A DNA stretch of 43,781 bases, taken from contig ONID01000006.1 in NCBI GenBank assembly GCA_900317765.1, positions 1 through 43,781 of the forward strand. Direction: 5' to 3'. Below, in pieces: positions 1,363 to 12,125 of the stretch. Numbering within the stretch: the stretch's first letter is position 1; the number at the start of each line of letters is the position of its first letter. Both the position numbers and the translations under genes were made by a program. The notes beneath the pieces were generated by a model. It was not told where the DNA came from. It searched no databases and worked only from the letters and a program-made list of their open reading frames with translations. Source of the DNA: an uncultured Eubacteriales bacterium. GTDB taxonomy: Bacteria; Bacillota; Clostridia; Oscillospirales; Acutalibacteraceae.

Positions 1363-2073
1363 ATGATCAGCAACAATGTCTTTGAGAGATATGAGATAAA
1401 ATATCTGGTCAGCAACCGCCAGAGAAGCATCCTCATGAACGAGATGCAGCGGCATATGAAACCGGACGCATACGGAAAAAGCACAATCTGCAACATCTAC
1501 TACGATACGCCGGATTATTACCTGATACGGCACTCGCTGGAAAAACCGGTCTACAAGGAAAAGCTCCGGGTGAGAAGCTACGGAACGGCGGCTTCGGGAG
1601 ACAGCGTGTTCGTGGAGCTGAAGAAGAAGTACCAGGAGGTCGTCTATAAGCGGCGAATCAGTCTGCCCGAGCGGGAAGCGATGTTTTATCTCGGCAGCGA
1701 CGCCAGCGGAGGTCTTGACGGACAGATCGGCAGCGAGATCGACTATTTCAGATTCATCTACAAAGACCTGTCCCCGAAGGTCTTCATCTCCTACGACCGG
1801 GAAGCCTTTTACGATAAGGAGGACGACAGCTTCCGGGTGACCTTCGACGGGAACATCATGTGGCGCACCAGCGATCTTTCGCTCACCAAGCCGCCCCGCG
1901 GAAGGAAGATTCTTCCCCCGGACACATCCCTCATGGAGGTCAAGACCTCCGGATGCATCCCGCTGTGGATGACCTCGCTCCTCTCGGAGAACGGCATCTT
2001 CAAAACCTCATTCTCCAAATACGGTAGAGCGTATGAGGCGCTCATGGAAAAAAGTTTGCTAAATGAACAGTGA
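1363..2073 (+). CDS. VTC-domain protein (polyphosphate polymerase-like)
   Basis: A 236-residue cytosolic protein spanning the whole VTC fold, the catalytic tunnel of the yeast Vtc4 polyphosphate polymerase. The hallmark basic and acidic strands are all visible: FERYEIKYLV near the start, EKLRVRSYG, VFVELKKKYQEVVYKRRI, SYDREAFYD, RVTFD and SLMEVK. These arginines, lysines and glutamates line the ATP/polyphosphate tunnel in known members, so it is likely catalytic; in many Clostridia the homologues accompany DUF4956 and CotH proteins and the true product is unproven. A strong AAGGAGG site lies about 10 bases before the ATG. It is followed by the DUF4956 gene after 79 bases that contain a GC-rich palindrome. 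No CotH gene is present in this window. Confidence 0.88.
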   Translation: MISNNVFERYEIKYLVSNRQRSILMNEMQRHMKPDAYGKSTICNIYYDTPDYYLIRHSLEKPVYKEKLRVRSYGTAASGDSVFVELKKKYQEVVYKRRISLPEREAMFYLGSDASGGLDGQIGSEIDYFRFIYKDLSPKVFISYDREAFYDKEDDSFRVTFDGNIMWRTSDLSLTKPPRGRKILPPDTSLMEVKTSGCIPLWMTSLLSENGIFKTSFSKYGRAYEALMEKSLLNEQ

Positions 2074-2084
2074 ATAACGTCGGA

Positions 2085-2109
2085 AGGCGCGTTCGCGCTT
2101 TGAATATTA
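2085..2109 (+). repeat. Short GC-rich palindrome, copy A
   Basis: GGCGCGTTCGCGCTTTGAAT lies 12 bases after the VTC stop codon. GCGCG-TT-CGCGC is a perfect stem. The flanking GTCGGA...AATATT context recurs at 15016-15042, so this is a repeated element rather than a chance hairpin. Confidence 0.6.
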
Positions 2110-2152
2110 GGATATTTTATTATTACTCAACCACCACAAGGAGGAACACATC

Positions 2153-2842
2153 ATGACAGAATCAATCTTTACGAACATAACAGAAGGAACCGCCACCATT
2201 GGCACGGCATCGTTTTTTGCCTGCATCCTGTCGGCGCTCGCTATCGGAACCGTTATGGCGCTGATCTACAGAATCAAAAACAGCAGCTCCCAGAGCTTTC
2301 TCGTGACGCTGTCTGTGATACCGGCGGCGGTGGCTATGGTTATCATGCTGGTCAACGGCGATTTCGGAACAGGCGTGGCGGTTGCGGGCGCCTTCGGGCT
2401 TATCCGCTTCCGTTCGGCACCCGGCACGGCGAAGGAAATCGCGGCGATCTTCACGGCAATGGGAGTCGGACTCGCCTGCGGTGTGGGATATATCGGCTAC
2501 GCGGCGGCGTTCGCTGCGATCATGTGCGGCGCTATGCTGCTCTACGGATTCATCGGGCTGGGCTCCGAAAAGAACGAGGAACGGCAGAAGAAGCTGACTA
2601 TCACCATCCCCGAAAACCTCGATTACAGCAGGGTATTTGACGATCTGTTTGATAAATACACCGTTTCGCACAGGCTGGTCAACGTCAAGACAACCAATAT
2701 GGGCAGTCTTTTCAAGCTGGCATACGATGTGGAACTCAAAACCGACGCGAGCGAAAAAGGATTTATCGACGAACTACGCTGCCGCAACGGCAATCTCGAA
2801 ATCAACCTCCACCGCCGTGAAAGCTCCATCGGCGAACTGTGA
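2153..2842 (+). CDS. DUF4956 membrane protein
   Basis: A 229-residue protein with three to four transmembrane helices in the first ~135 residues and a soluble C-terminal domain. The family signature AFGLIRFRSAPGTAKEIAAI lies between the second and third helices. Function is not established; the family is repeatedly found next to VTC-domain proteins, as here, so the pair may form a membrane complex coupling polymer synthesis to membrane passage (inference). AAGGAGG lies 8-9 bases before the ATG. The soluble tail (TITIPENLDYSRVFDDLFDKY onward) has the alternating pattern of a small alpha/beta regulatory-type domain, which I cannot name. Confidence 0.88.
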   Translation: MTESIFTNITEGTATIGTASFFACILSALAIGTVMALIYRIKNSSSQSFLVTLSVIPAAVAMVIMLVNGDFGTGVAVAGAFGLIRFRSAPGTAKEIAAIFTAMGVGLACGVGYIGYAAAFAAIMCGAMLLYGFIGLGSEKNEERQKKLTITIPENLDYSRVFDDLFDKYTVSHRLVNVKTTNMGSLFKLAYDVELKTDASEKGFIDELRCRNGNLEINLHRRESSIGEL

Positions 2843-2864
2843 GCAGGATTTCACAATACCCCGG

Positions 2865-2894
2865 TTGCAATATCACACAGGGCAATGTTATAAT
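2865..2894 (+). promoter_or_regulatory. Sigma-A type promoter before the beta-helix lipoprotein
   Basis: TTGCAA (2865-2870), an 18-base spacer and a perfect TATAAT (2889-2894) lie just after the DUF4956 gene. This suggests the lipoprotein has its own start of transcription as well as any read-through. Confidence 0.55.
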
Positions 2895-2982
2895 AGGCAT
2901 AGGAATTCCGGCAGAGGGTCAGCCGTTCCGCACGGCAAGGAAAGGCTGACCATACAGACCGAAGGAAAGGGCGTATGACAGA

Positions 2983-4869
2983 ATGAAATTCAAAAAGGGA
3001 ATCGCCGCGATCATGGCAGCGCTGATTATCGCATCGCTTGCGGGCTGCGGCACAGACGGAGAAGGTAAAAACACATCCAGTGAGCCGGTCAGACTGCTCG
3101 ATACCTCGGAGATGTTCAGCGGAAGGGACATCGAAAACGGCTATGACGAATCCGAATGCACCGTGATCACCCTCACGGGTGATTCCGCAAAGGTGAGCGG
3201 CGAAGGGGCGACGGTCAAAGGGAGCACCGTCACGATCAGCGCCGAGGGGGAATACCTCCTTTCGGGCAAACTTGACAACGGCTGTCTCATCATCGACGCG
3301 GACAGTAAAGACAAGATACGTCTGATTTTAAACGGCGCGGAGATCAGCAGCAAGACCTGTGCCGCCGTCAGCGTCAGACAGGCGGACAAGGTATTCATCA
3401 CGCTGGCAAAGGGGAGCGAAAACATGCTTTCCAACACCGCCGGTTCCAAGTCTGAGGATGAAGCTGACGCGGTGATATTCTCCAAGGACGATCTCACGAT
3501 CAACGGAGAAGGCAAACTCACCGTTACCGCCAACACGGGACATGGCATTGTCAGCAAGGATGATCTGGTGATTACCGGAGGGTCCTATACCGTGACGTCC
3601 GAGAAGAAGGGATTGGACGCGAACGACAGCATCCGCATTGCGTCCGGCTCATTCACGATAGATGCGGGAACCGACGCACTTCACTGCGAAAACGACGATT
3701 CCGCCAAGGGGTATATCTATATTGCGGACGGTTCGTTCAGCATAACCGCAGGAACGGACGGTATGGACGCAAGCGGCGTGATACAGATAGACAACGGCTC
3801 CATCACGCTCGCCACCGGCGGCGGAAACGCCAATGCCAGCACAGACAAGGGCGGCAAGATCAACCGGGACTGGGGCAACTGGGGAGGAAGAGGAGGACGC
3901 AGAACGCCAAGCGGCGGCAGCTCCGCAGAAACATCCAAGACCTCGGCAGGCAGCGGCTCCGAATCGTCCAGCGCTAAAGGGCTGAAATCCGACAGCTCGA
4001 TTGCCGTGAACAACGGCTCCATCACCATTGATTCCTCCGACGACGCGATACATTCCGACGGACAGGTCACCGTCGCCGACGGAAGCATTGCGATTACCTC
4101 GGGCGACGACGGCATTCACGCCGGTTCATCCCTGCAGATCAGCGGCGGAACAGTGAATGTTTCCAAGAGCTACGAGGGATTGGAGGGAATGACCATCGAC
4201 ATCAGCGGCGGCGACGTTTCGGTGACCGCGTCGGACGACGGTCTGAACGCGGCAGGCGGCAACGATGGCAGCAGCGTCAACGGACGACCCGGACAGAATC
4301 AGTTTGCGGCGCAGGAAGGCGTGTACATCCGCATTTCAGGCGGCAAGGTGACGGTCAATGCATCGGGAGACGGAATCGACTCCAACGGCGACGTGACCGT
4401 ATCGGGCGGTGAGACGTATGTCTCGGGTTCGACGGGCAACGGCAACGCCGCGCTCGATTACAACGGAGAAGCCACCGTGACGGGCGGTGTATTCATAGCC
4501 GCCGGAATGAGCGGCATGGCACAGAATTTCGGCAGCAGGTCCACCCAAGGCGCGATGCTGGTGAATGTGGAAAACCAGAAGGCAGACAGCAAGATCACCC
4601 TGAAGGATTCGGACGGCAAGACCCTTGCCGCCTATCAGCCGCCCAAGAGCTACAACAGCATTGTGGTCAGCACACCCGACATCCGCCAGGGCAAGACATA
4701 CACCCTGACGGCAGGTTCCGCGAAGGTGGAAGTGAAGATGGATTCACTGCTCTACGGCTCCGGCGGAGGAATGGGCGGCGGAAGAATGCCGGGAGGCGAT
4801 TTCCAAGGGGGAGATTTCCCTGGGGGAGGAAATTCACCCGGAGGACGTCCTCCGCGCGGCAGAGGTTGA
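2983..4869 (+). CDS. Secreted beta-helix-like lipoprotein (carbohydrate-binding, DUF4353-like)
   Basis: A 628-residue exported lipoprotein. Residues 1-22 are a lipoprotein signal ending SLAGC, with Cys22 to be lipidated. The rest is built from many imperfect repeats of the type 'I-x-GGT-V-x-V-SDDGI(H/N)A' (for example GSIAITSGDDGIHAGSSLQI and GGDVSVTASDDGLNAAGG), each predicted to be one turn of a right-handed beta-helix. This is the style of the 'carbohydrate-binding domain-containing' DUF4353 family. A Gly/Ser/Arg-rich low-complexity insert occurs at about residues 290-325 and the C-terminus is a Gly-rich tail. It follows VTC and DUF4956 genes, as in other Clostridia, and probably acts at the cell surface; the ligand is unknown. 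Start chosen because it opens directly on the signal peptide. Confidence 0.82.
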   Translation: MKFKKGIAAIMAALIIASLAGCGTDGEGKNTSSEPVRLLDTSEMFSGRDIENGYDESECTVITLTGDSAKVSGEGATVKGSTVTISAEGEYLLSGKLDNGCLIIDADSKDKIRLILNGAEISSKTCAAVSVRQADKVFITLAKGSENMLSNTAGSKSEDEADAVIFSKDDLTINGEGKLTVTANTGHGIVSKDDLVITGGSYTVTSEKKGLDANDSIRIASGSFTIDAGTDALHCENDDSAKGYIYIADGSFSITAGTDGMDASGVIQIDNGSITLATGGGNANASTDKGGKINRDWGNWGGRGGRRTPSGGSSAETSKTSAGSGSESSSAKGLKSDSSIAVNNGSITIDSSDDAIHSDGQVTVADGSIAITSGDDGIHAGSSLQISGGTVNVSKSYEGLEGMTIDISGGDVSVTASDDGLNAAGGNDGSSVNGRPGQNQFAAQEGVYIRISGGKVTVNASGDGIDSNGDVTVSGGETYVSGSTGNGNAALDYNGEATVTGGVFIAAGMSGMAQNFGSRSTQGAMLVNVENQKADSKITLKDSDGKTLAAYQPPKSYNSIVVSTPDIRQGKTYTLTAGSAKVEVKMDSLLYGSGGGMGGGRMPGGDFQGGDFPGGGNSPGGRPPRGRG

Positions 4870-5624: not shown

Positions 5625-5701
5625 TGGTCCGAGTGGCGAGAGTCGAACTCACGGCCTCTTGAACCCCATTCAAGCGCGCTACCAAACTGCGCTACACCCG
5701 G
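5625..5701 (-). tRNA. tRNA-Pro (anticodon GGG)
   Basis: On the minus strand a 77-base cloverleaf: acceptor arm CCGGGTG with CACTCGG (one G-T pair), D-arm with the GTAGCGCAG and TTGGTAG motifs, anticodon stem CTTGA/TCAAG around the loop ATGGGGT, T-arm with GTTCGACTC, and encoded CCA. Anticodon GGG decodes CCC and CCU. Confidence 0.95.
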
Positions 5702-5839: not shown

Positions 5840-5867
5840 TTGATTTTTCTTGAATCTGTGGTATAAT
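5840..5867 (+). promoter_or_regulatory. Extended -10 promoter before the DegT-like gene
   Basis: TTGATT (5840-5845), 16 bases, then TGGTATAAT with a perfect TATAAT (5862-5867) preceded by an extended -10 TG. It lies 33 bases before the GTG start codon. Confidence 0.65.
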
Positions 5868-5900: not shown

Positions 5901-6905
5901 GTGAATAAATTAGATTTGTTTTGTGAAGATGTTAGAAAAAGGCTGGGAGCGTCTGAGTGCAGATCGTTTTCCGGCAAGGTGGAGGGTATCACCGCACTCT
6001 TTGAGGCTATTCAGCTTGGCAATAAGGACTGCGTTTATCTGTCTGCGCTCGCTCCGGGTTATTTCGTTCGGGCGATTCTTGCCTGCGGCGCTGTGCCCGT
6101 CTTTTGTGACATTACCGCCGACGGCTTTGTCATTGACCATAAATCTCTTGCCGAAGCGGTCAGACAGACGGTCAATGAAGACAGACTTTATCCGCGTGCC
6201 GTGATCGCAGAGCATTTCGGCGGAATGCCGTTCTCTGTCAAGGCAGTCAAGGACGTCTGCGACCGTATGGGTCTTTTCCTCATCGAGGACTGCGGCTGCG
6301 GCTTCGGCTGTCGCTGGGACGGTCAGGAATGCGGCTCCTTCGGCGATTATTCGCTGATTTCGCTGGGCACTTCCTCCGTCTTCGGCTCCGGCGGAAGCGG
6401 CTGTCTGGTAGCGGCGAACGGCGCCAATGAACTGGCTTCCCTCATCGAGGTCTGCGACGGCTCCGGTTGGGATACCGCCGACGGGATTTATGGCAAGTCG
6501 CTTGCCGGTTTTTCCCAGACAATGCCCCGGACGCTTGCCGATGCGGAATCCGCCCTTGCGGAAATCACCGGCATAATGAAGGAATCCGACTTCTGGCTGC
6601 GTCGCGCAGGCGGCAGACAAAAGAGTTCCTGCTCCGCAACCATCGTGATCGCACAGAGCGAAGCCCACTGCGACGCCGCAGTGGCGAGCTTTGATGCCGC
6701 GGGACTCTCCGATCTGGTCAGAAAACTGCACGTTCACCGCAGGGCATGCTTCGAACACGGCTGCCGCGGGTTCAAGTCGCTCGAGAACGCCTCGGCACTC
6801 GCACCCCGAGCCTTTTCCGTCGACATATTCGGCGCACTTCATTCCGGCGGAATTCCCGACCTGATGAAGCAGCTCCGCTTCGTCGCCGAAAAAATACATG
6901 CATAG
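5901..6905 (+). CDS. DegT/DnrJ/EryC1-like protein lacking the PLP lysine
   Basis: A 334-residue soluble protein with the fold pattern of DegT/DnrJ/EryC1/StrS sugar aminotransferases: cofactor-face segment GITALFEAIQLGNKDCVY, then GAVPVFCDI, RAVIAEHFGG, LFLIEDCGCGFG (Asp130 equivalent of the PLP-ring aspartate), FGDYSLISLG and a Gly-rich turn. Family members form a Schiff base between PLP and a lysine in the motif S-F-x-x-x-K. Here the motif reads SLGTSS, putting Ser159 where the lysine should be, so normal transamination is unlikely; the family also contains dehydratases and non-catalytic homologues. It starts with GTG after GGGAGAG. It precedes the FHA-ABC and kinase genes, separated by a palindromic repeat that begins in its stop codon. 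Role unknown. Confidence 0.75.
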   Translation: MNKLDLFCEDVRKRLGASECRSFSGKVEGITALFEAIQLGNKDCVYLSALAPGYFVRAILACGAVPVFCDITADGFVIDHKSLAEAVRQTVNEDRLYPRAVIAEHFGGMPFSVKAVKDVCDRMGLFLIEDCGCGFGCRWDGQECGSFGDYSLISLGTSSVFGSGGSGCLVAANGANELASLIEVCDGSGWDTADGIYGKSLAGFSQTMPRTLADAESALAEITGIMKESDFWLRRAGGRQKSSCSATIVIAQSEAHCDAAVASFDAAGLSDLVRKLHVHRRACFEHGCRGFKSLENASALAPRAFSVDIFGALHSGGIPDLMKQLRFVAEKIHA

Positions 6906-6937
6906 AGCGCGGCGCATTCGCAACGCTAAGAGATTAG
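6905..6937 (+). repeat. Short GC-rich palindrome, copy B
   Basis: GAGCGCGGCGCATTCGCAAC followed by GCTAAGAGATTAG. Its first base is the last base of the preceding TAG stop codon. The GAGCGC...GCTAAGAGA(T/A)TAG frame recurs at 42301-42333. Confidence 0.6.
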
Positions 6938-6980
6938 TGTACTATTATCTAAATATATTTTGATTCGGAGGACTGAGAAC

Positions 6981-9398
6981 TTGGAAAATAATTTTATGAA
7001 TGTCAATCCTGACTCTTCCGCGGTGGTTGATTTTGACGGAAGCACCGGCTGTTCGGTTACGATTTTTGACTACAGCCATATTCCGGACGAATACAATCTG
7101 ATGGCGTTCGGCAAGGAAACCGTTTCCTTCGGACGTGACGACACCAACGACATTATGATCGCGTCCGACATCGTCTCCCGTCGTCACGGACACTTCACCC
7201 TCACCGGCGGTCATTGCTATATCACCGATGACGGCAGCACCAACGGCATTTATGTCAACGGCAAGCTGATTACCCAGATCGAGCTCAAGGACGGCGATTC
7301 CATCCGCATTGACGATATGGAGCAGTCGCTATACAGCGGCATCAGCATGGTCTTTTCCGACAAGAATTCCGGCGCCGATTGGAACAGCGTCCAGCTCGCC
7401 AAGGACGTCACCACCATCGGCAGGAACAAAAACTGCGATATTGCGGTGGACGATCCCAGGATGGAGGATGAAGCCGCCGAAATCCGCATTGAAGGCGTCA
7501 CCTCCTACGTCCTCTGTAATCAGGGAGAACTGCGCGACATCCTGATCAACAACGAGATCATGGAGGGCGAACGCTACAATCTCCACGATGAAGATATTTT
7601 TGTGATAGGAAACACCAAGTTCTCCTACTCCAAGGGCTGCGTCTACTACAAACAGGAAAAATCCGGTCTTTCCATTGAATTGGTCAATATTTCCAAATTC
7701 GTACATCAGGGCGTCGGCAAGGATAAGAAGATTCTCGATGACACCAGCATGCTGATTCTTCCGGGCGATTTCGTCGCCATCGTCGGCGGTTCCGGTTCCG
7801 GCAAATCCACCCTGATGAACTGCATCAACGGCTTCGACAAGCCCTCCACCGGCAAGGTGCTGGTCAATCGCCGCGATCTCTATGAAAATTACGACGAACT
7901 GAAATACAACATCGGCTACGTTCCGCAGCAGGATATTGTTCACGAAAATCTCACCCTGATCAGTATGCTGCGCTATGTCGCAAAGCTCCGGCTTCCCGAC
8001 GGCACCACACGTGCCGAACGCGAAAAGCGCATTGCCGATGTCCTGCGCACCGTTGAGCTTACCAAGCACAAGAACAAGCTCATCCGCAAGCTTTCAGGCG
8101 GTCAGAAAAAGAGAGCATCCATTGCCGTCGAGCTCATGAGCGACCCGGGACTTTTCTTCCTCGATGAGCCTTCCTCCGGTCTTGACCCCGGAACCGAGCG
8201 CACCCTCATGCATACCCTCAAGCGCATGACCGACGAGGGCAAGACGGTTATCATGATCACCCACAACACCAACAACATCCACCTCTGCGACAAGCTGATC
8301 TTCCTCGGTGCCGGCGGCTATGTCGCCTTCTGCGGCAATCCTGCCGACGCACGTTCCTTCTTCGGCATTCCCAAAGATCAGGATCTCACCGACGCCTACA
8401 CCAAGGTCGAGGAAGACCCCAAGGGCTGGGAGGAAAAATTCAACGCTTCGCCCTACAACAAGATTCAGACCATCGGCGAGCTGAAAACGCCTCCCATGAC
8501 CGCTCAGCAGAAAAAAGAGCGCAAGAAGAAGCTCGAAAAGGAAAACCACAAGTCCTTCCTGCACCAGTTCCGCGTGCTCTCCGCCAGATATATCAACCTT
8601 ATCTGGAATGACAAGATGCGCCTGCTCTTCTTCCTGCTTCAGGGTCCGCTGATTGCCTATCTCTTCTCCTTTGTCACGGTGGAGAACACCTTCAAGTCCT
8701 ATTTCGACGCGCAGTCCATGCTCTTCTGTCTCTCCTGCGCCGGCATCTGGGTTGGTCTGATGAATTCCATCCAGGAAGTCTGCAAGGAACGGAACATCGT
8801 CCGGCGTGAATATATGTCGGATGTGCGGCTGAGTTCCTATATCTGTTCCAAGTTGGCTGTCCAGACGCTGCTCGCTGTCGTGCAGTGCGGTCTGATGCTC
8901 GCCGTATTCGTCTACACCATCGGCAAGCCGGACAAGGGCGTGATCTTCGGCAATTCCACCATTGAGATGATGATCACCCTCGTGCTCATTACCGTGTCAT
9001 CCTCCTCGCTGGGACTGCTCGTCTCCTCTCTTGTTAAGAATACCGACCGCGCGATGGTTTTCGCTCCCATTATCCTCATTCCGCAGCTGCTTTTCTCAGG
9101 CATCCTCTTCAAGCTCGAAGGCGTCACCGAGGTGCTTTCCTGGATCTGCGTCAGCCGCTGGGGTATGCAGGCATTCAGCAACACCGCCGATCTCAACGGC
9201 GTGCTGTGGAACGGTCTGTCGCTCAAATACAAGTCCGCTGATATGCTGCAGCAGGCATATGATCTGAATAAAAATTCACTCTATGCACATTCTGCCAACA
9301 ATCTGCTGCTCTCGTGGGGCGTTATGCTGATCACTATCGTCGTTTTCTGCTTTATCAGCGCCACCGTGCTTCGCAGCGTGAAAAATGACAAACGATAA
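6981..9398 (+). CDS. FHA-FHA-ABC ATPase/ABC-2 permease fusion transporter
   Basis: An 805-residue membrane exporter subunit. Residues ~40-115: first FHA domain with GRDDTNDI, SRRH and STNG, the phosphothreonine-binding residues. Residues ~138-213: second FHA-like domain with GRNKNCDI but MEDEAAEI in place of S-R-x-H, so probably not phosphopeptide-binding. Residues ~235-460: ABC ATPase with Walker A GGSGSGKST, signature LSGGQKKR and Walker B LFFLDEP, closest in style to ABCG/White half-transporters. From ~540: ABC-2 permease with about six helices and an SSSSLGLLVSSL stretch. ABCG-type halves dimerise. The start is TTG at 6981 because GGAGG (6967-6971) is 9 bases upstream; an in-frame ATG at 6996 is too far. 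The kinase gene overlaps its end, suggesting kinase-controlled transport. Confidence 0.9.
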   Translation: MENNFMNVNPDSSAVVDFDGSTGCSVTIFDYSHIPDEYNLMAFGKETVSFGRDDTNDIMIASDIVSRRHGHFTLTGGHCYITDDGSTNGIYVNGKLITQIELKDGDSIRIDDMEQSLYSGISMVFSDKNSGADWNSVQLAKDVTTIGRNKNCDIAVDDPRMEDEAAEIRIEGVTSYVLCNQGELRDILINNEIMEGERYNLHDEDIFVIGNTKFSYSKGCVYYKQEKSGLSIELVNISKFVHQGVGKDKKILDDTSMLILPGDFVAIVGGSGSGKSTLMNCINGFDKPSTGKVLVNRRDLYENYDELKYNIGYVPQQDIVHENLTLISMLRYVAKLRLPDGTTRAEREKRIADVLRTVELTKHKNKLIRKLSGGQKKRASIAVELMSDPGLFFLDEPSSGLDPGTERTLMHTLKRMTDEGKTVIMITHNTNNIHLCDKLIFLGAGGYVAFCGNPADARSFFGIPKDQDLTDAYTKVEEDPKGWEEKFNASPYNKIQTIGELKTPPMTAQQKKERKKKLEKENHKSFLHQFRVLSARYINLIWNDKMRLLFFLLQGPLIAYLFSFVTVENTFKSYFDAQSMLFCLSCAGIWVGLMNSIQEVCKERNIVRREYMSDVRLSSYICSKLAVQTLLAVVQCGLMLAVFVYTIGKPDKGVIFGNSTIEMMITLVLITVSSSSLGLLVSSLVKNTDRAMVFAPIILIPQLLFSGILFKLEGVTEVLSWICVSRWGMQAFSNTADLNGVLWNGLSLKYKSADMLQQAYDLNKNSLYAHSANNLLLSWGVMLITIVVFCFISATVLRSVKNDKR

Positions 9399-10266
9399 TA
9401 TGACTTTTACTTCGGATTTCAGTTCATCCGGAAGTAACGCAGCCGATGTTATCATCAACGGCGACGTCTTTCGCATGGACGGGATGATTTACCAGGGTAA
9501 CGACAGCCGGATCTTCTCCGCTCATTCATTGCAAAGCGGCGGAGATTCGGCTTTTGTCATTAAATGCCTGACCTGTCCGAAGGACGGCGACGTCTGGCGC
9601 ATGGCTATGCGGGAGATCGAAGCCGGCAACCTCCTGCGCCGCTGTCCCTATGTCGTTCCGCTGCGCGGTTACAGCGTCGTCGCTGACAGGAATCAGGCGG
9701 AGTATCAGCTTTTTCTGCTCTTTGACCGCCTGCAATGCCTGGACAATATGGAGATTTCCGACACCCGCGTTGTGCTGGAAATTTGCCGCGACATCTGCCG
9801 CGCCCTTGCCTTCATGCGGAAAAAAGGGCTGATGCACGGCGACGTAAAGCCCCGCAACATCTATTCCGACGGCGAAAAATGGCTGCTCGGCGACCTCGGA
9901 AGCGTCTGTGTTGCGGGCGAAGTGCCGCAGTACGGCAGCGAGGGCTATCTCTCGCCCGAGGCTGCACGCGGGGAATCCTGCGACATCCGCGCCGATCTCT
10001 ATTCGCTCGGCATCACTGTATATAAATTACTCAGTGGCGGCAGACTGCCCTTCTGCGACCTTCCCTGCGCCGAAATGAGCGACAGCGACGTGTATCTCGC
10101 CATCAGAAGAAGGCTCTCCGGAGAGGAGATTCCGCCGCTGCCCGGTGTGAACTGCCAAGTCAACAACCTGCTGCGGAAACTGTGCCGTTTCCGGCGGGAA
10201 GACAGATTCAAAAAGCCCTCTGATGCGGCGGAATTTGTTCAAAAGCTGCTGCTTGCGTCATTCTGA
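9385..10266 (+). CDS. Serine/threonine protein kinase
   Basis: A 293-residue soluble Hanks-type kinase without a transmembrane or PASTA region. Visible motifs: VIK lysine (Lys60), helix-C glutamate in MREIEAGNLL, catalytic loop HGDVKPRN (Asp153, Lys155, Asn158; Arg of HRD replaced by Gly), DLG in place of DFG (Asp170), and GYLSPEAA as the APE motif. The ATP-binding lobe is short with a weak Gly loop (QGNDSRIFSA). All key catalytic residues are present, so it is likely active; the 'GD' catalytic loop means it need not require activation-loop phosphorylation. Its ATG overlaps the transporter gene by 14 bases (an alternative ATG is at 9400), implying translational coupling. The natural partner is the FHA domain of that transporter. 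Confidence 0.9.
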   Translation: MTNDNMTFTSDFSSSGSNAADVIINGDVFRMDGMIYQGNDSRIFSAHSLQSGGDSAFVIKCLTCPKDGDVWRMAMREIEAGNLLRRCPYVVPLRGYSVVADRNQAEYQLFLLFDRLQCLDNMEISDTRVVLEICRDICRALAFMRKKGLMHGDVKPRNIYSDGEKWLLGDLGSVCVAGEVPQYGSEGYLSPEAARGESCDIRADLYSLGITVYKLLSGGRLPFCDLPCAEMSDSDVYLAIRRRLSGEEIPPLPGVNCQVNNLLRKLCRFRREDRFKKPSDAAEFVQKLLLASF

Positions 10267-10377
10267 ACAGATTATCATAAAATTTTTTTTACATTATTAT
10301 CATAGAAATATCCTAAGAATGATGTATAATAATTAGGTTAAGATAATTCTGTCAGTATATGATAACGGGGTGAGCAA

Positions 10378-11052
10378 TTGGAATACACCGAGAAGGAGAA
10401 AAAAGGCATTGACAAGGTCGAGCGCATGAACCGGCTCTTTGACAAAATTCTGCTGCCTGCGATCGGCATTCTGATTATTATGCTGCTTGTTTCCTTCACT
10501 GTCAATAAATACCGCGAGAAATTCGGTTCCGACCGTCAGTCCGCTTCCCAGACCGCCGTGCAGCAGTCCGAGCCGCAGGCGTTCGCCTTGAGAAGAAGCC
10601 TCCTGGCGGGGTATGCGCAGTACAAAGAGCAATTCGATGCCTACGGCTACAAGCCCGTCGAAGGGTATTCCTACGATCTGTCGCTCTGCAAGACGGTGGA
10701 CGATGAGATGTCCATTTTCCAGTTTGCCGACGGCACACTCGGCGAGCTGACCATTATCAATTACATTCCGTCGGATAAAAAATCCCCCTACGATTCGCTC
10801 TCGCTGGCGATTTCCTCCCAAAGGCTGATCACCGTCACCGCCAAAAACGGGGAAGAGAGCCATTCCGTCACCTTCCTGTCCTATGACTTTTCCTCCTATA
10901 CGTCCGACCAGGAGGAGGAATTCAACGCGCTGATGAAACTCACCGACATCGGCGAGCTTTCCGCTATCTACGAAATCTTCGAAACCGACATCTCCAACAT
11001 CGCCCAAAAATGCCAAACTACAGGCAGTAGGCAGAAGGGAGATAGAATGTAG
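10378..11052 (+). CDS. Membrane-anchored hypothetical protein of the kinase/FHA locus
   Basis: A 224-residue protein starting with TTG behind GGGGTGAG. Residues 1-20 are charged and cytosolic, residues ~24-42 (ILLPAIGILIIMLLVSFTV) form one membrane helix, and the rest is an extracytoplasmic alpha/beta domain with no motif that I recognise. A TATAAT at 10325-10330 may be its own -10 box but lacks a good -35. It follows the kinase gene by 111 bases in the same direction and is probably part of the same module, for example a substrate or partner of the transporter (inference). The last residues (QTTGSRQKGDRM) are encoded by degenerate AGGCAGTAGGCAG sequence and may be a recent extension. Confidence 0.7.
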   Translation: MEYTEKEKKGIDKVERMNRLFDKILLPAIGILIIMLLVSFTVNKYREKFGSDRQSASQTAVQQSEPQAFALRRSLLAGYAQYKEQFDAYGYKPVEGYSYDLSLCKTVDDEMSIFQFADGTLGELTIINYIPSDKKSPYDSLSLAISSQRLITVTAKNGEESHSVTFLSYDFSSYTSDQEEEFNALMKLTDIGELSAIYEIFETDISNIAQKCQTTGSRQKGDRM

Positions 11053-11112: not shown

Positions 11113-11129
11113 CATGGGGGTTGATACCG

Positions 11130-12125
11130 ATGGCAAAGGATAAGGATACACTGACAAAAAAGTATATTGGACGCCCCGATGTATTTGCTGACGCGTTCAA
11201 CCTGCTGATCTATGATGGAAGACAGGTGATCAAGCCGGAAGAGCTGCGGGATCTGGATACAACGGCGATAGCCCTTCCCTTTGGTTTGGAAGGAGCGCAG
11301 GCGCCGGTTCAAAGAATTCGGGACGTATTGAAGCAATGGGTGATCAAACGGGACGACAAAGCAGCGTACCTGCTGCTCGGCGTGGAAAATCAATCCGATA
11401 TTCACTACGCAATGCCGGCGCGGAGTATGCTGTACGACGCGCTGCAATACACGGCGCAGGTGGAAGCAACAGCAAAGGCGCATAAAAAGGCGACCGGAGA
11501 AGACCGTCCCACTTCCGGAGAATATCTTTCTGGGTTTTACAGAAGCGATCAGCTGATTCCGGTGATCACGCTGGTGATTTATTTCGGGGCAAAGCGCTGG
11601 GACGGTCCGATGTCCCTCAGAGAAATGTTCACAGTCAGGGACAACGCTATTCTGAAATTTGCTGCCGATTACCGCATCAACCTGGTTGCGCCCGAGGCGC
11701 TGACGGAACAGCAGGCGGATAAGCTTTGCAGCGATCTGAAGGAAGTCATGCTGTTTGTGAAGTATTCCGAAGACAAGGATAAGCTTCAGGCCATCGTCGA
11801 GCACGACAAGGGATTTCAGTCCATCGCCCGCGAAACCGCCGAAGTGATCAAAGCCGTGACAGGCACCGAGATCAGGATCAATGCAGGAGAGGAGAGTATC
11901 AACATGTGCAAAGCAATTCAGGACATCAGATTGGAAGGACTTATGGAAGGCCGCATGGAAGGCCGTAGGGAAGGAATTGAACAGGGCGTAGAAGAAACCG
12001 TACTCATGACGGTGAACATCCTCAGATCATTAGGGATGACAGACGAGGACATTGTTGACAAAATAGTGGAGAATTCCAGCATAAGCGAGGAAGAAGCAGA
12101 GCGCTATGTGTACGGGGCAGAATAA
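11130..12125 (+). CDS. Rpn/YhgA-like nuclease, putative transposase
   Basis: A 331-residue soluble protein of the Rpn (recombination-promoting nuclease)/YhgA-like putative transposase group of PD-(D/E)XK enzymes. The typical start is present: TKKYIGRPDVFADAFNLLIY followed by KPEELRDLD. The middle has the AYLLLGVENQSDIHYAMPAR strand set with the acidic E-x-Q catalytic pair, and VITLVIYFGAKRWDGP. The C-terminal region has the EGRMEGRREGIEQG repeats common in this family. ATG at 11130 is chosen because GGGGG (11116-11120) is well placed; a TTG nine bases earlier is possible. Known members nick DNA and stimulate RecA-independent recombination in E. coli. The gene is bracketed by 20-bp direct repeats and stands as a single unit between unrelated genes, consistent with a mobile or recently inserted gene. 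Confidence 0.85.
   Translation: MAKDKDTLTKKYIGRPDVFADAFNLLIYDGRQVIKPEELRDLDTTAIALPFGLEGAQAPVQRIRDVLKQWVIKRDDKAAYLLLGVENQSDIHYAMPARSMLYDALQYTAQVEATAKAHKKATGEDRPTSGEYLSGFYRSDQLIPVITLVIYFGAKRWDGPMSLREMFTVRDNAILKFAADYRINLVAPEALTEQQADKLCSDLKEVMLFVKYSEDKDKLQAIVEHDKGFQSIARETAEVIKAVTGTEIRINAGEESINMCKAIQDIRLEGLMEGRMEGRREGIEQGVEETVLMTVNILRSLGMTDEDIVDKIVENSSISEEEAERYVYGAE

Follow-up and report, generated by a model that had tools for sequence, protein, structure and literature searches.

Rv1747 of Mycobacterium tuberculosis is a two-FHA ATP-binding cassette (ABC) transporter of the G subfamily and is encoded in one operon with the Ser/Thr kinase PknF (Rv1746). PknF phosphorylates Rv1747 in vitro and positively modulates it, and the yeast two-hybrid interaction between the two proteins requires both FHA domains (parts of PMC3908365). 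FHA I, which spans residues 29-92 (an FHA II construct covered 201-310), binds phosphorylated Rv2623, and the levels of phosphatidylinositol mannosides (PIM) are lower in an Rv1747 mutant (parts of PMC5549992). The linker between the two FHA domains is disordered, and PknF-phosphorylated Rv1747 1-310 forms condensates in vitro (parts of PMC9312465). Here we analyse a locus from an uncultured Clostridia bacterium that lies within a stretch of 43,781 nucleotides, hereafter the window (contig ONID01000006.1, positions 1 to 43,781, forward strand). Three genes kept together in one genus form the core of this locus; their products are a protein of the DegT fold, a half-transporter of FHA-FHA-ABC-ABC2 make-up and a Hanks-type kinase. 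The transporter-kinase pair resembles the known mycobacterial one, and PknF-Rv1747 is its closest precedent. The real novelty of the gene set is the dead sugar enzyme. The likeliest reading, to which we assign a probability of about 0.6, is that the three genes constitute a phosphothreonine-gated exporter operon (pseudo-DegT, FHA-FHA-ABC exporter and kinase) of the PknF-Rv1747 kind.

The locus comprises four successive open reading frames (ORFs) on the plus strand (5901-6905, 6960/6981-9398, 9385-10266 and 10378-11052). The three core genes would be co-transcribed as one operon, and the fourth gene is a neighbour outside the conserved unit. The following features were delineated, where NBD and TMD stand for nucleotide-binding and transmembrane domain and PLP for pyridoxal phosphate.

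5840 to 5867, plus strand: promoter-like site TTGATT-16-TATAAT (second hexamer preceded by TG) ahead of the DegT-like gene; from a consensus scan, by itself no evidence of function.
5901 to 6905, plus strand: DegT-fold pseudo-aminotransferase with Ser159 at the PLP lysine position (PF01041, 2.8e-25).
6981 to 9398, plus strand: FHA1-FHA2-NBD-TMD half-transporter, an ABCG-like exporter (Pfam, NCBIfam and motifs); ORF readable from 6960.
7122 to 7310, plus strand: FHA1, phosphothreonine site intact (genome search: PF00498, 1.5e-17).
7410 to 7610, plus strand: FHA2, degenerate, SxxH His lost (PF00498, 3.3e-9 in the genome search).
9385 to 10266, plus strand: Hanks-type Ser/Thr kinase, non-RD (H-G/C-D), with an alternative start at ATG 9400 (PF00069, 1.1e-19).
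10303 to 10330, plus strand: promoter-like site TAGAAA-16-TATAAT before the 10378-11052 gene, from the scan; all 11 aligned loci have the TATAAT.
10378 to 11052, plus strand: protein of an unnamed family, for which a long N-terminal helix plus an alpha/beta domain is predicted; a neighbour, not an obligate part.

Conservation of the locus was assessed in 18 genomes of one Ruminococcus-like genus. The transporter is present in all 18, and the kinase gene directly follows it in every one of them (fragments checked). An absence of the kinase from three loci (L061, L070, L071) was ruled out, as it is present there in another frame. The DegT gene directly precedes the transporter in 17/17 genomes with readable upstream sequence, a count made on 16 alignment rows plus G165, with G160 cut by a contig end. 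Identity to the window's proteins within the genus is 69-94% for the full-length transporter, 40-71% for the kinase, 46-80% for the DegT-like protein and 52-72% for the 10378 protein. The most likely translation start of the transporter is TTG 6981 and not 6960; the TTG sits 9 bases after a GGAGG sequence, and the same start is found in all 8 loci inspected. With ATG 9385 as the kinase start, the overlap of the transporter and kinase genes announced in the original prediction amounts to 14 bases, and with ATG 9400 there is none; in L062 and L066 the two genes overlap by 4 bases. Upstream of the DegT-like gene, a similar TTGATTTTT...TATAA arrangement was recognised by eye in 7 of 10 aligned genus stretches (10 of the 17 available).

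As had been proposed from the DNA alone, two FHA domains, an NBD and an ABC-2/ABCG TMD are carried by a single polypeptide whose gene is accompanied by a Ser/Thr kinase ORF. Pfam identifies FHA (two stretches), ABC_tran and ABC2_membrane in the transporter ORF, and the Walker A, LSGGQ and Walker B motifs were all located. In NCBIfam, the pigment precursor permease subfamily (TIGR00955, 1.1e-71) matches best, though its 242 bits stay below the cut-off of 736. The motif residues of the FHA family (GR, SxxH, STNG) form the signature of the phosphothreonine site. FHA1 carries this signature as GR / SRRH / STNG, and G58, R59, S73, H76, S93, T94, N95 and G96 are identical in all 15 full-length rows (the partial rows L068, L069 and L070 were left out of the transporter counts). 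In FHA2, the SxxH His is lost in 14 and the Arg of the GR motif in 4 of the same 15 rows, and the share of invariant columns (17%) is the lowest of the seven segments compared, against 54% in FHA1 and 72% in the NBD. FHA2 thus looks dead, and the expectation of an intact first and a lost second site was borne out. By eye, the distant L079 and L080 show the mirror image, with FHA1 degenerate and FHA2 kept. The two FHA domains are separated by 25-33 residues according to Pfam bounds (FHA1 end at 117, FHA2 start at 143-151). Among solved domains, FHA1 matches GarA best by sequence (6.2e-10), and it also matches both Rv1747 FHA structures, 6cah (3.5e-7) and 6ccd (1.1e-5).

The kinase retains the complete Hanks catalytic set (Lys, HxD, Asn, DxG and the APE Glu) in 18/18 genus rows, with K60, H151, D153, K155, N158, D170, G172 and E192 invariant. 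PknB structures are the closest solved kinases to the kinase profile (1.3e-22). PknB-like kinases are activated by phosphorylation of threonines in the activation loop. Here, 12 of the 18 rows are without any Thr in this loop, five have one and a single row (L067) has two, and the kinase is of the non-RD type, Gly or Cys replacing the HRD Arg throughout. No second Pfam domain was found in the kinase above cut-off. With no second domain found, the non-RD motif and no loop Thr in 12/18 rows, control of the kinase is probably borne by a partner, perhaps the DegT-like protein.

The degenerate nature of the DegT-like protein, also part of the original prediction, was confirmed by three PDB alignments (HMMER), all of which pair the PLP lysine of the solved enzymes with S159. 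This position is Ser or Thr in 16/16 genus rows, the set used for all DegT residue counts. Among 19 matches of the DegT profile outside the genus, 17 keep the Lys; the two without it (L107, L112), which seem to be partial or badly aligned, were counted as misses. In active enzymes of the fold, an Asp pairs with the PLP ring nitrogen; it is replaced by Asn in 3/16 genus rows. The AlphaFold model (pLDDT 86.7) shows a complete DegT fold with fold type I architecture, and its best Foldseek match is 4qgr (5.7e-21). Invariant residues include C69, C131, H277, H279 and C283, and invariance affects 6 of 16 Cys versus 60 of 334 columns overall. Judged by its sequence, the DegT-like protein is a conserved pseudo-aminotransferase. 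In a search of 150 genomes of the family with the DegT profile, matches from the genus score around 1e-180, against 4.4e-35 for the best one beyond them, so that no closer relative outside the genus was seen in this set.

The 10378-11052 protein had been thought to complete the locus, a view that the comparison does not sustain. A gap of 111 bases separates its gene from the kinase gene; a TATAAT box stands in this gap in all 11 loci that were aligned out of the 14 linked ones (L056, L069 and L070 were left out). The family is present in 18/18 genus genomes; the gene adjoins the kinase in 14, lies elsewhere in three (G150, G162, G165) and is bounded by contig ends on both sides in G151. Its separation from the kinase in 3/18 genomes and the conserved promoter-like box ahead of its gene led us to reject the protein as an obligate part. 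Its AlphaFold model (mean pLDDT 79.2, low in approximately the first 62 residues) consists of a long N-terminal helix, which may be a membrane anchor, and an alpha/beta domain. Neither Pfam nor a fold search of the PDB (E <= 0.001) yielded a match for the protein. An NlpC/P60 gene comes directly after its gene in the other 13 linked loci. In the window only, an extra ORF lies between them (11121-12125, plus strand; YhgA-like putative transposase/Rpn-type, PF04754, 6e-5), which looks like a lineage insertion since the flanking genes are adjacent in those 13 loci. On the other side of the locus, a tRNA-Pro (ggg) gene lies at 5625-5701 (minus strand) upstream of the DegT-like gene, and the ORF covering it was also matched upstream of DegT in L057, L064, L033 and L037. 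Genes for a VTC domain protein, a DUF4956 protein and a Cthe_2159 carbohydrate-binding protein stand in a row at 1363-4869 (plus strand), which we take to be a polyphosphate-polymerase-like cluster.

The genome to which the window belongs (as contig C94) measures 2.9 Mb in 244 contigs and is 86.5% complete. The named records with close orthologues are metagenome-assembled genomes of uncultured Ruminococcus, Clostridiales, Clostridia or Bacillota, including two from goat omasum and abomasum. Isolates labelled RUG are rumen genomes, and the host is probably a gut bacterium of rumen origin. Over the Pfam cut-offs, its genome contains 15 Pkinase, 8 PP2C and 8 FHA matches. They are partly clustered (C34, C151, C45, C142), and we judge them many for 2.9 Mb, a judgement made without comparison to relatives.

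Outside the genus the transporter is rare. It was found at E <= 1e-90 in 4 of 150 family genomes, including the window's genome and the genus member G036, and at E <= 1e-80 in 12 of 391 class and 2 of 398 phylum genomes, each of these counts including the window's genome. We gathered 14 out-of-genus loci of 5.5-17 kb each (L074-L086, L144), scanned 43 ORFs from these and from paralogue loci with Pfam, and searched both sets in all frames for the kinase, PP2C, DegT and 10378 families with hidden Markov models built here. A kinase is present in four of the 14 (L074, L077, L078, L082) and a PP2C in four (L076, L077, L082, L085), so that six have one or the other; neither a DegT-like nor a 10378 protein was found in any of the 14 by this search. 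The linkage of kinase and FHA-ABC genes, on which the original prediction had staked its reading, thus extends beyond the genus in these four loci. One of the 14, L086, contains a split transporter, and its ORF fails to align to the FHA part. A paralogue within the genus has the transporter split into two genes, with a PP2C alongside in 4/4 readable loci (L087-L090; the PP2C of L089 spans two reading frames). The fifth copy (G165) is truncated by the start of its contig, the rest of which yielded no PP2C. In the copy from the window's genome (L087, C97:20433-23441), an FHA-FHA-NBD gene and a separate TMD gene lie directly after the PP2C.

In the phosphothreonine-gated exporter that we favour, the ABCG-type half-transporter would dimerise and export a component of the envelope. 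The kinase would phosphorylate a threonine on the transporter or on a partner, and FHA1 would bind the resulting phosphothreonine, whereby the exporter would be switched or clustered. The pseudo-DegT protein would act as a regulator or scaffold and not as an aminotransferase. Kinase-switched export, as originally suggested, fits the intact residues and the 18/18 linkage; the phosphorylation step itself stays putative. The scheme is further favoured by the DegT gene at 17/17 readable loci, by the kinase or PP2C genes at six of the 14 out-of-genus loci, by the PP2C alongside the split paralogue, by the matches of FHA1 to the Rv1747 structures and by the precedent of Rv1747 as a PknF substrate. 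Several observations weigh against this scheme. By eye, the kinase is without a typical glycine-rich loop. The best solved match of FHA1 is GarA, a soluble regulator, rather than Rv1747, and the inter-FHA linker is short, unlike that of Rv1747. Eight of the 14 out-of-genus loci have neither a kinase nor a PP2C, and 15 kinase matches exceed the cut-off in the genome. A more elaborate form, which we regard as quite unlikely, would make the pseudo-aminotransferase a sensor of a nucleotide-sugar-like metabolite that controls the non-RD kinase; the phosphothreonine mark set by this kinase would then gate the exporter via FHA1. If true, this would be a three-protein metabolic export switch made from a dead sugar enzyme.

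Because of the 15 kinase matches in the genome, FHA1 may read another kinase. It could then mainly bind phosphothreonines made by other kinases, the neighbouring one being co-regulated and acting elsewhere. The PP2C and FHA matches over cut-off are also in line with such cross-talk, as are the 10 of 14 out-of-genus loci without a kinase; it is at odds with the adjacency of the kinase in 18/18 genus genomes and with the overlapping frames in the inspected loci, and we consider it unlikely. The DegT pocket, in turn, may be reused, since the fold is complete in the model and several residues, the cysteines and histidines listed above among them, are invariant. The DegT-like protein might handle a nucleotide or amino sugar without PLP-lysine chemistry, with the exporter moving the product and the kinase serving as flow control. 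However, the PLP lysine is lost in all 16 rows and the PLP Asp has become Asn in three, and the conserved downstream genes that were identified (NlpC/P60, hydrolase, aspartate aminotransferase family, SecDF) lie outside sugar pathways, which makes such a biosynthetic coupling distinctly improbable. The most doubtful proposal casts the 10378 protein as the phosphorylated partner, with FHA1 binding its phosphorylated N-terminal tail (Y-T-E-K-E) and the alpha/beta domain thereby brought to the exporter. T4 is invariant in the 14 linked rows and is also Thr in G151 and G162, and the family occurs throughout the genus. Against this, Ser replaces Thr in G150 and G165, for which reason T4 was dropped as strong evidence for an FHA1 ligand; moreover, the gene stands apart from the kinase in G150, G162 and G165 and has its own promoter-like box, and the membrane orientation of the protein is an inferred one. 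We regard this role as very improbable.

Control of secretion by a kinase and an FHA protein is also described for PpkA/Fha of the type VI secretion system, but with a different secretion machine (parts of PMC3953482). In fold, the DegT-like protein resembles the DegT/DnrJ/EryC1/StrS sugar aminotransferases (e.g. 4qgr), and it matches their profile over positions 27-224 of 360. It differs from these enzymes by the absent PLP lysine, the variable PLP Asp and its length of 334 residues versus 359-445 in the solved chains compared. In other Clostridia, five loci (L074, L076, L077, L078, L082) encode FHA-ABC proteins that are 37-46% identical and lie in a Thr-phosphorylation neighbourhood (PP2C, vWA-FHA, multidomain kinases). 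These loci are without a DegT-like gene, and both of their FHA sites look intact by eye; in L074, L077, L078 and L082 the kinase is longer and matches further Pfam families (NPCBM/TPR, F5/8 type C, DUF5050, NHL). No report of the present gene set or of a Clostridia FHA-ABC protein was found in the open-access literature searched, nor any precedent for the added pseudo-DegT gene, including a DegT pseudoenzyme with FHA. The original view that the gene set is uncharacterised thus applies to the pseudo-DegT addition, but not to the pairing of a kinase with a two-FHA ABC transporter, which is known from PknF-Rv1747 (parts of PMC3908365 and PMC5549992).

If our reading is true, phosphothreonine-gated FHA-ABC export reaches beyond mycobacteria: in some Clostridia its genes form a set kept across a whole genus, to which a dead sugar enzyme has been added as a regulator. 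It would also exist in a simpler form, with one live FHA domain, a short linker and a kinase in which no second domain was found, which could ease its study. The substrate of Rv1747 is unsettled, its function being unknown in PMC3908365 and PIM levels altered in PMC5549992 (parts of both), and a simpler, harmless relative could help with this question.

Like PknF-Rv1747, the locus combines two N-terminal FHA domains, an NBD and a TMD in one polypeptide, a putative G-subfamily half-transporter with a Ser/Thr kinase alongside. In the mycobacterial operon pknF lies upstream, whereas here the kinase gene comes after the transporter; further differences are the added pseudo-DegT gene and a kinase in which no second domain was found. 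PknF is a membrane kinase, and the phosphorylated threonines of Rv1747 lie in the linker between its FHA domains. Here that linker is short, and FHA2 has lost its His. With two live FHA domains and a long linker both wanting, the pair is a variant of PknF-Rv1747 rather than a copy; by analogy, it may nevertheless work like it.

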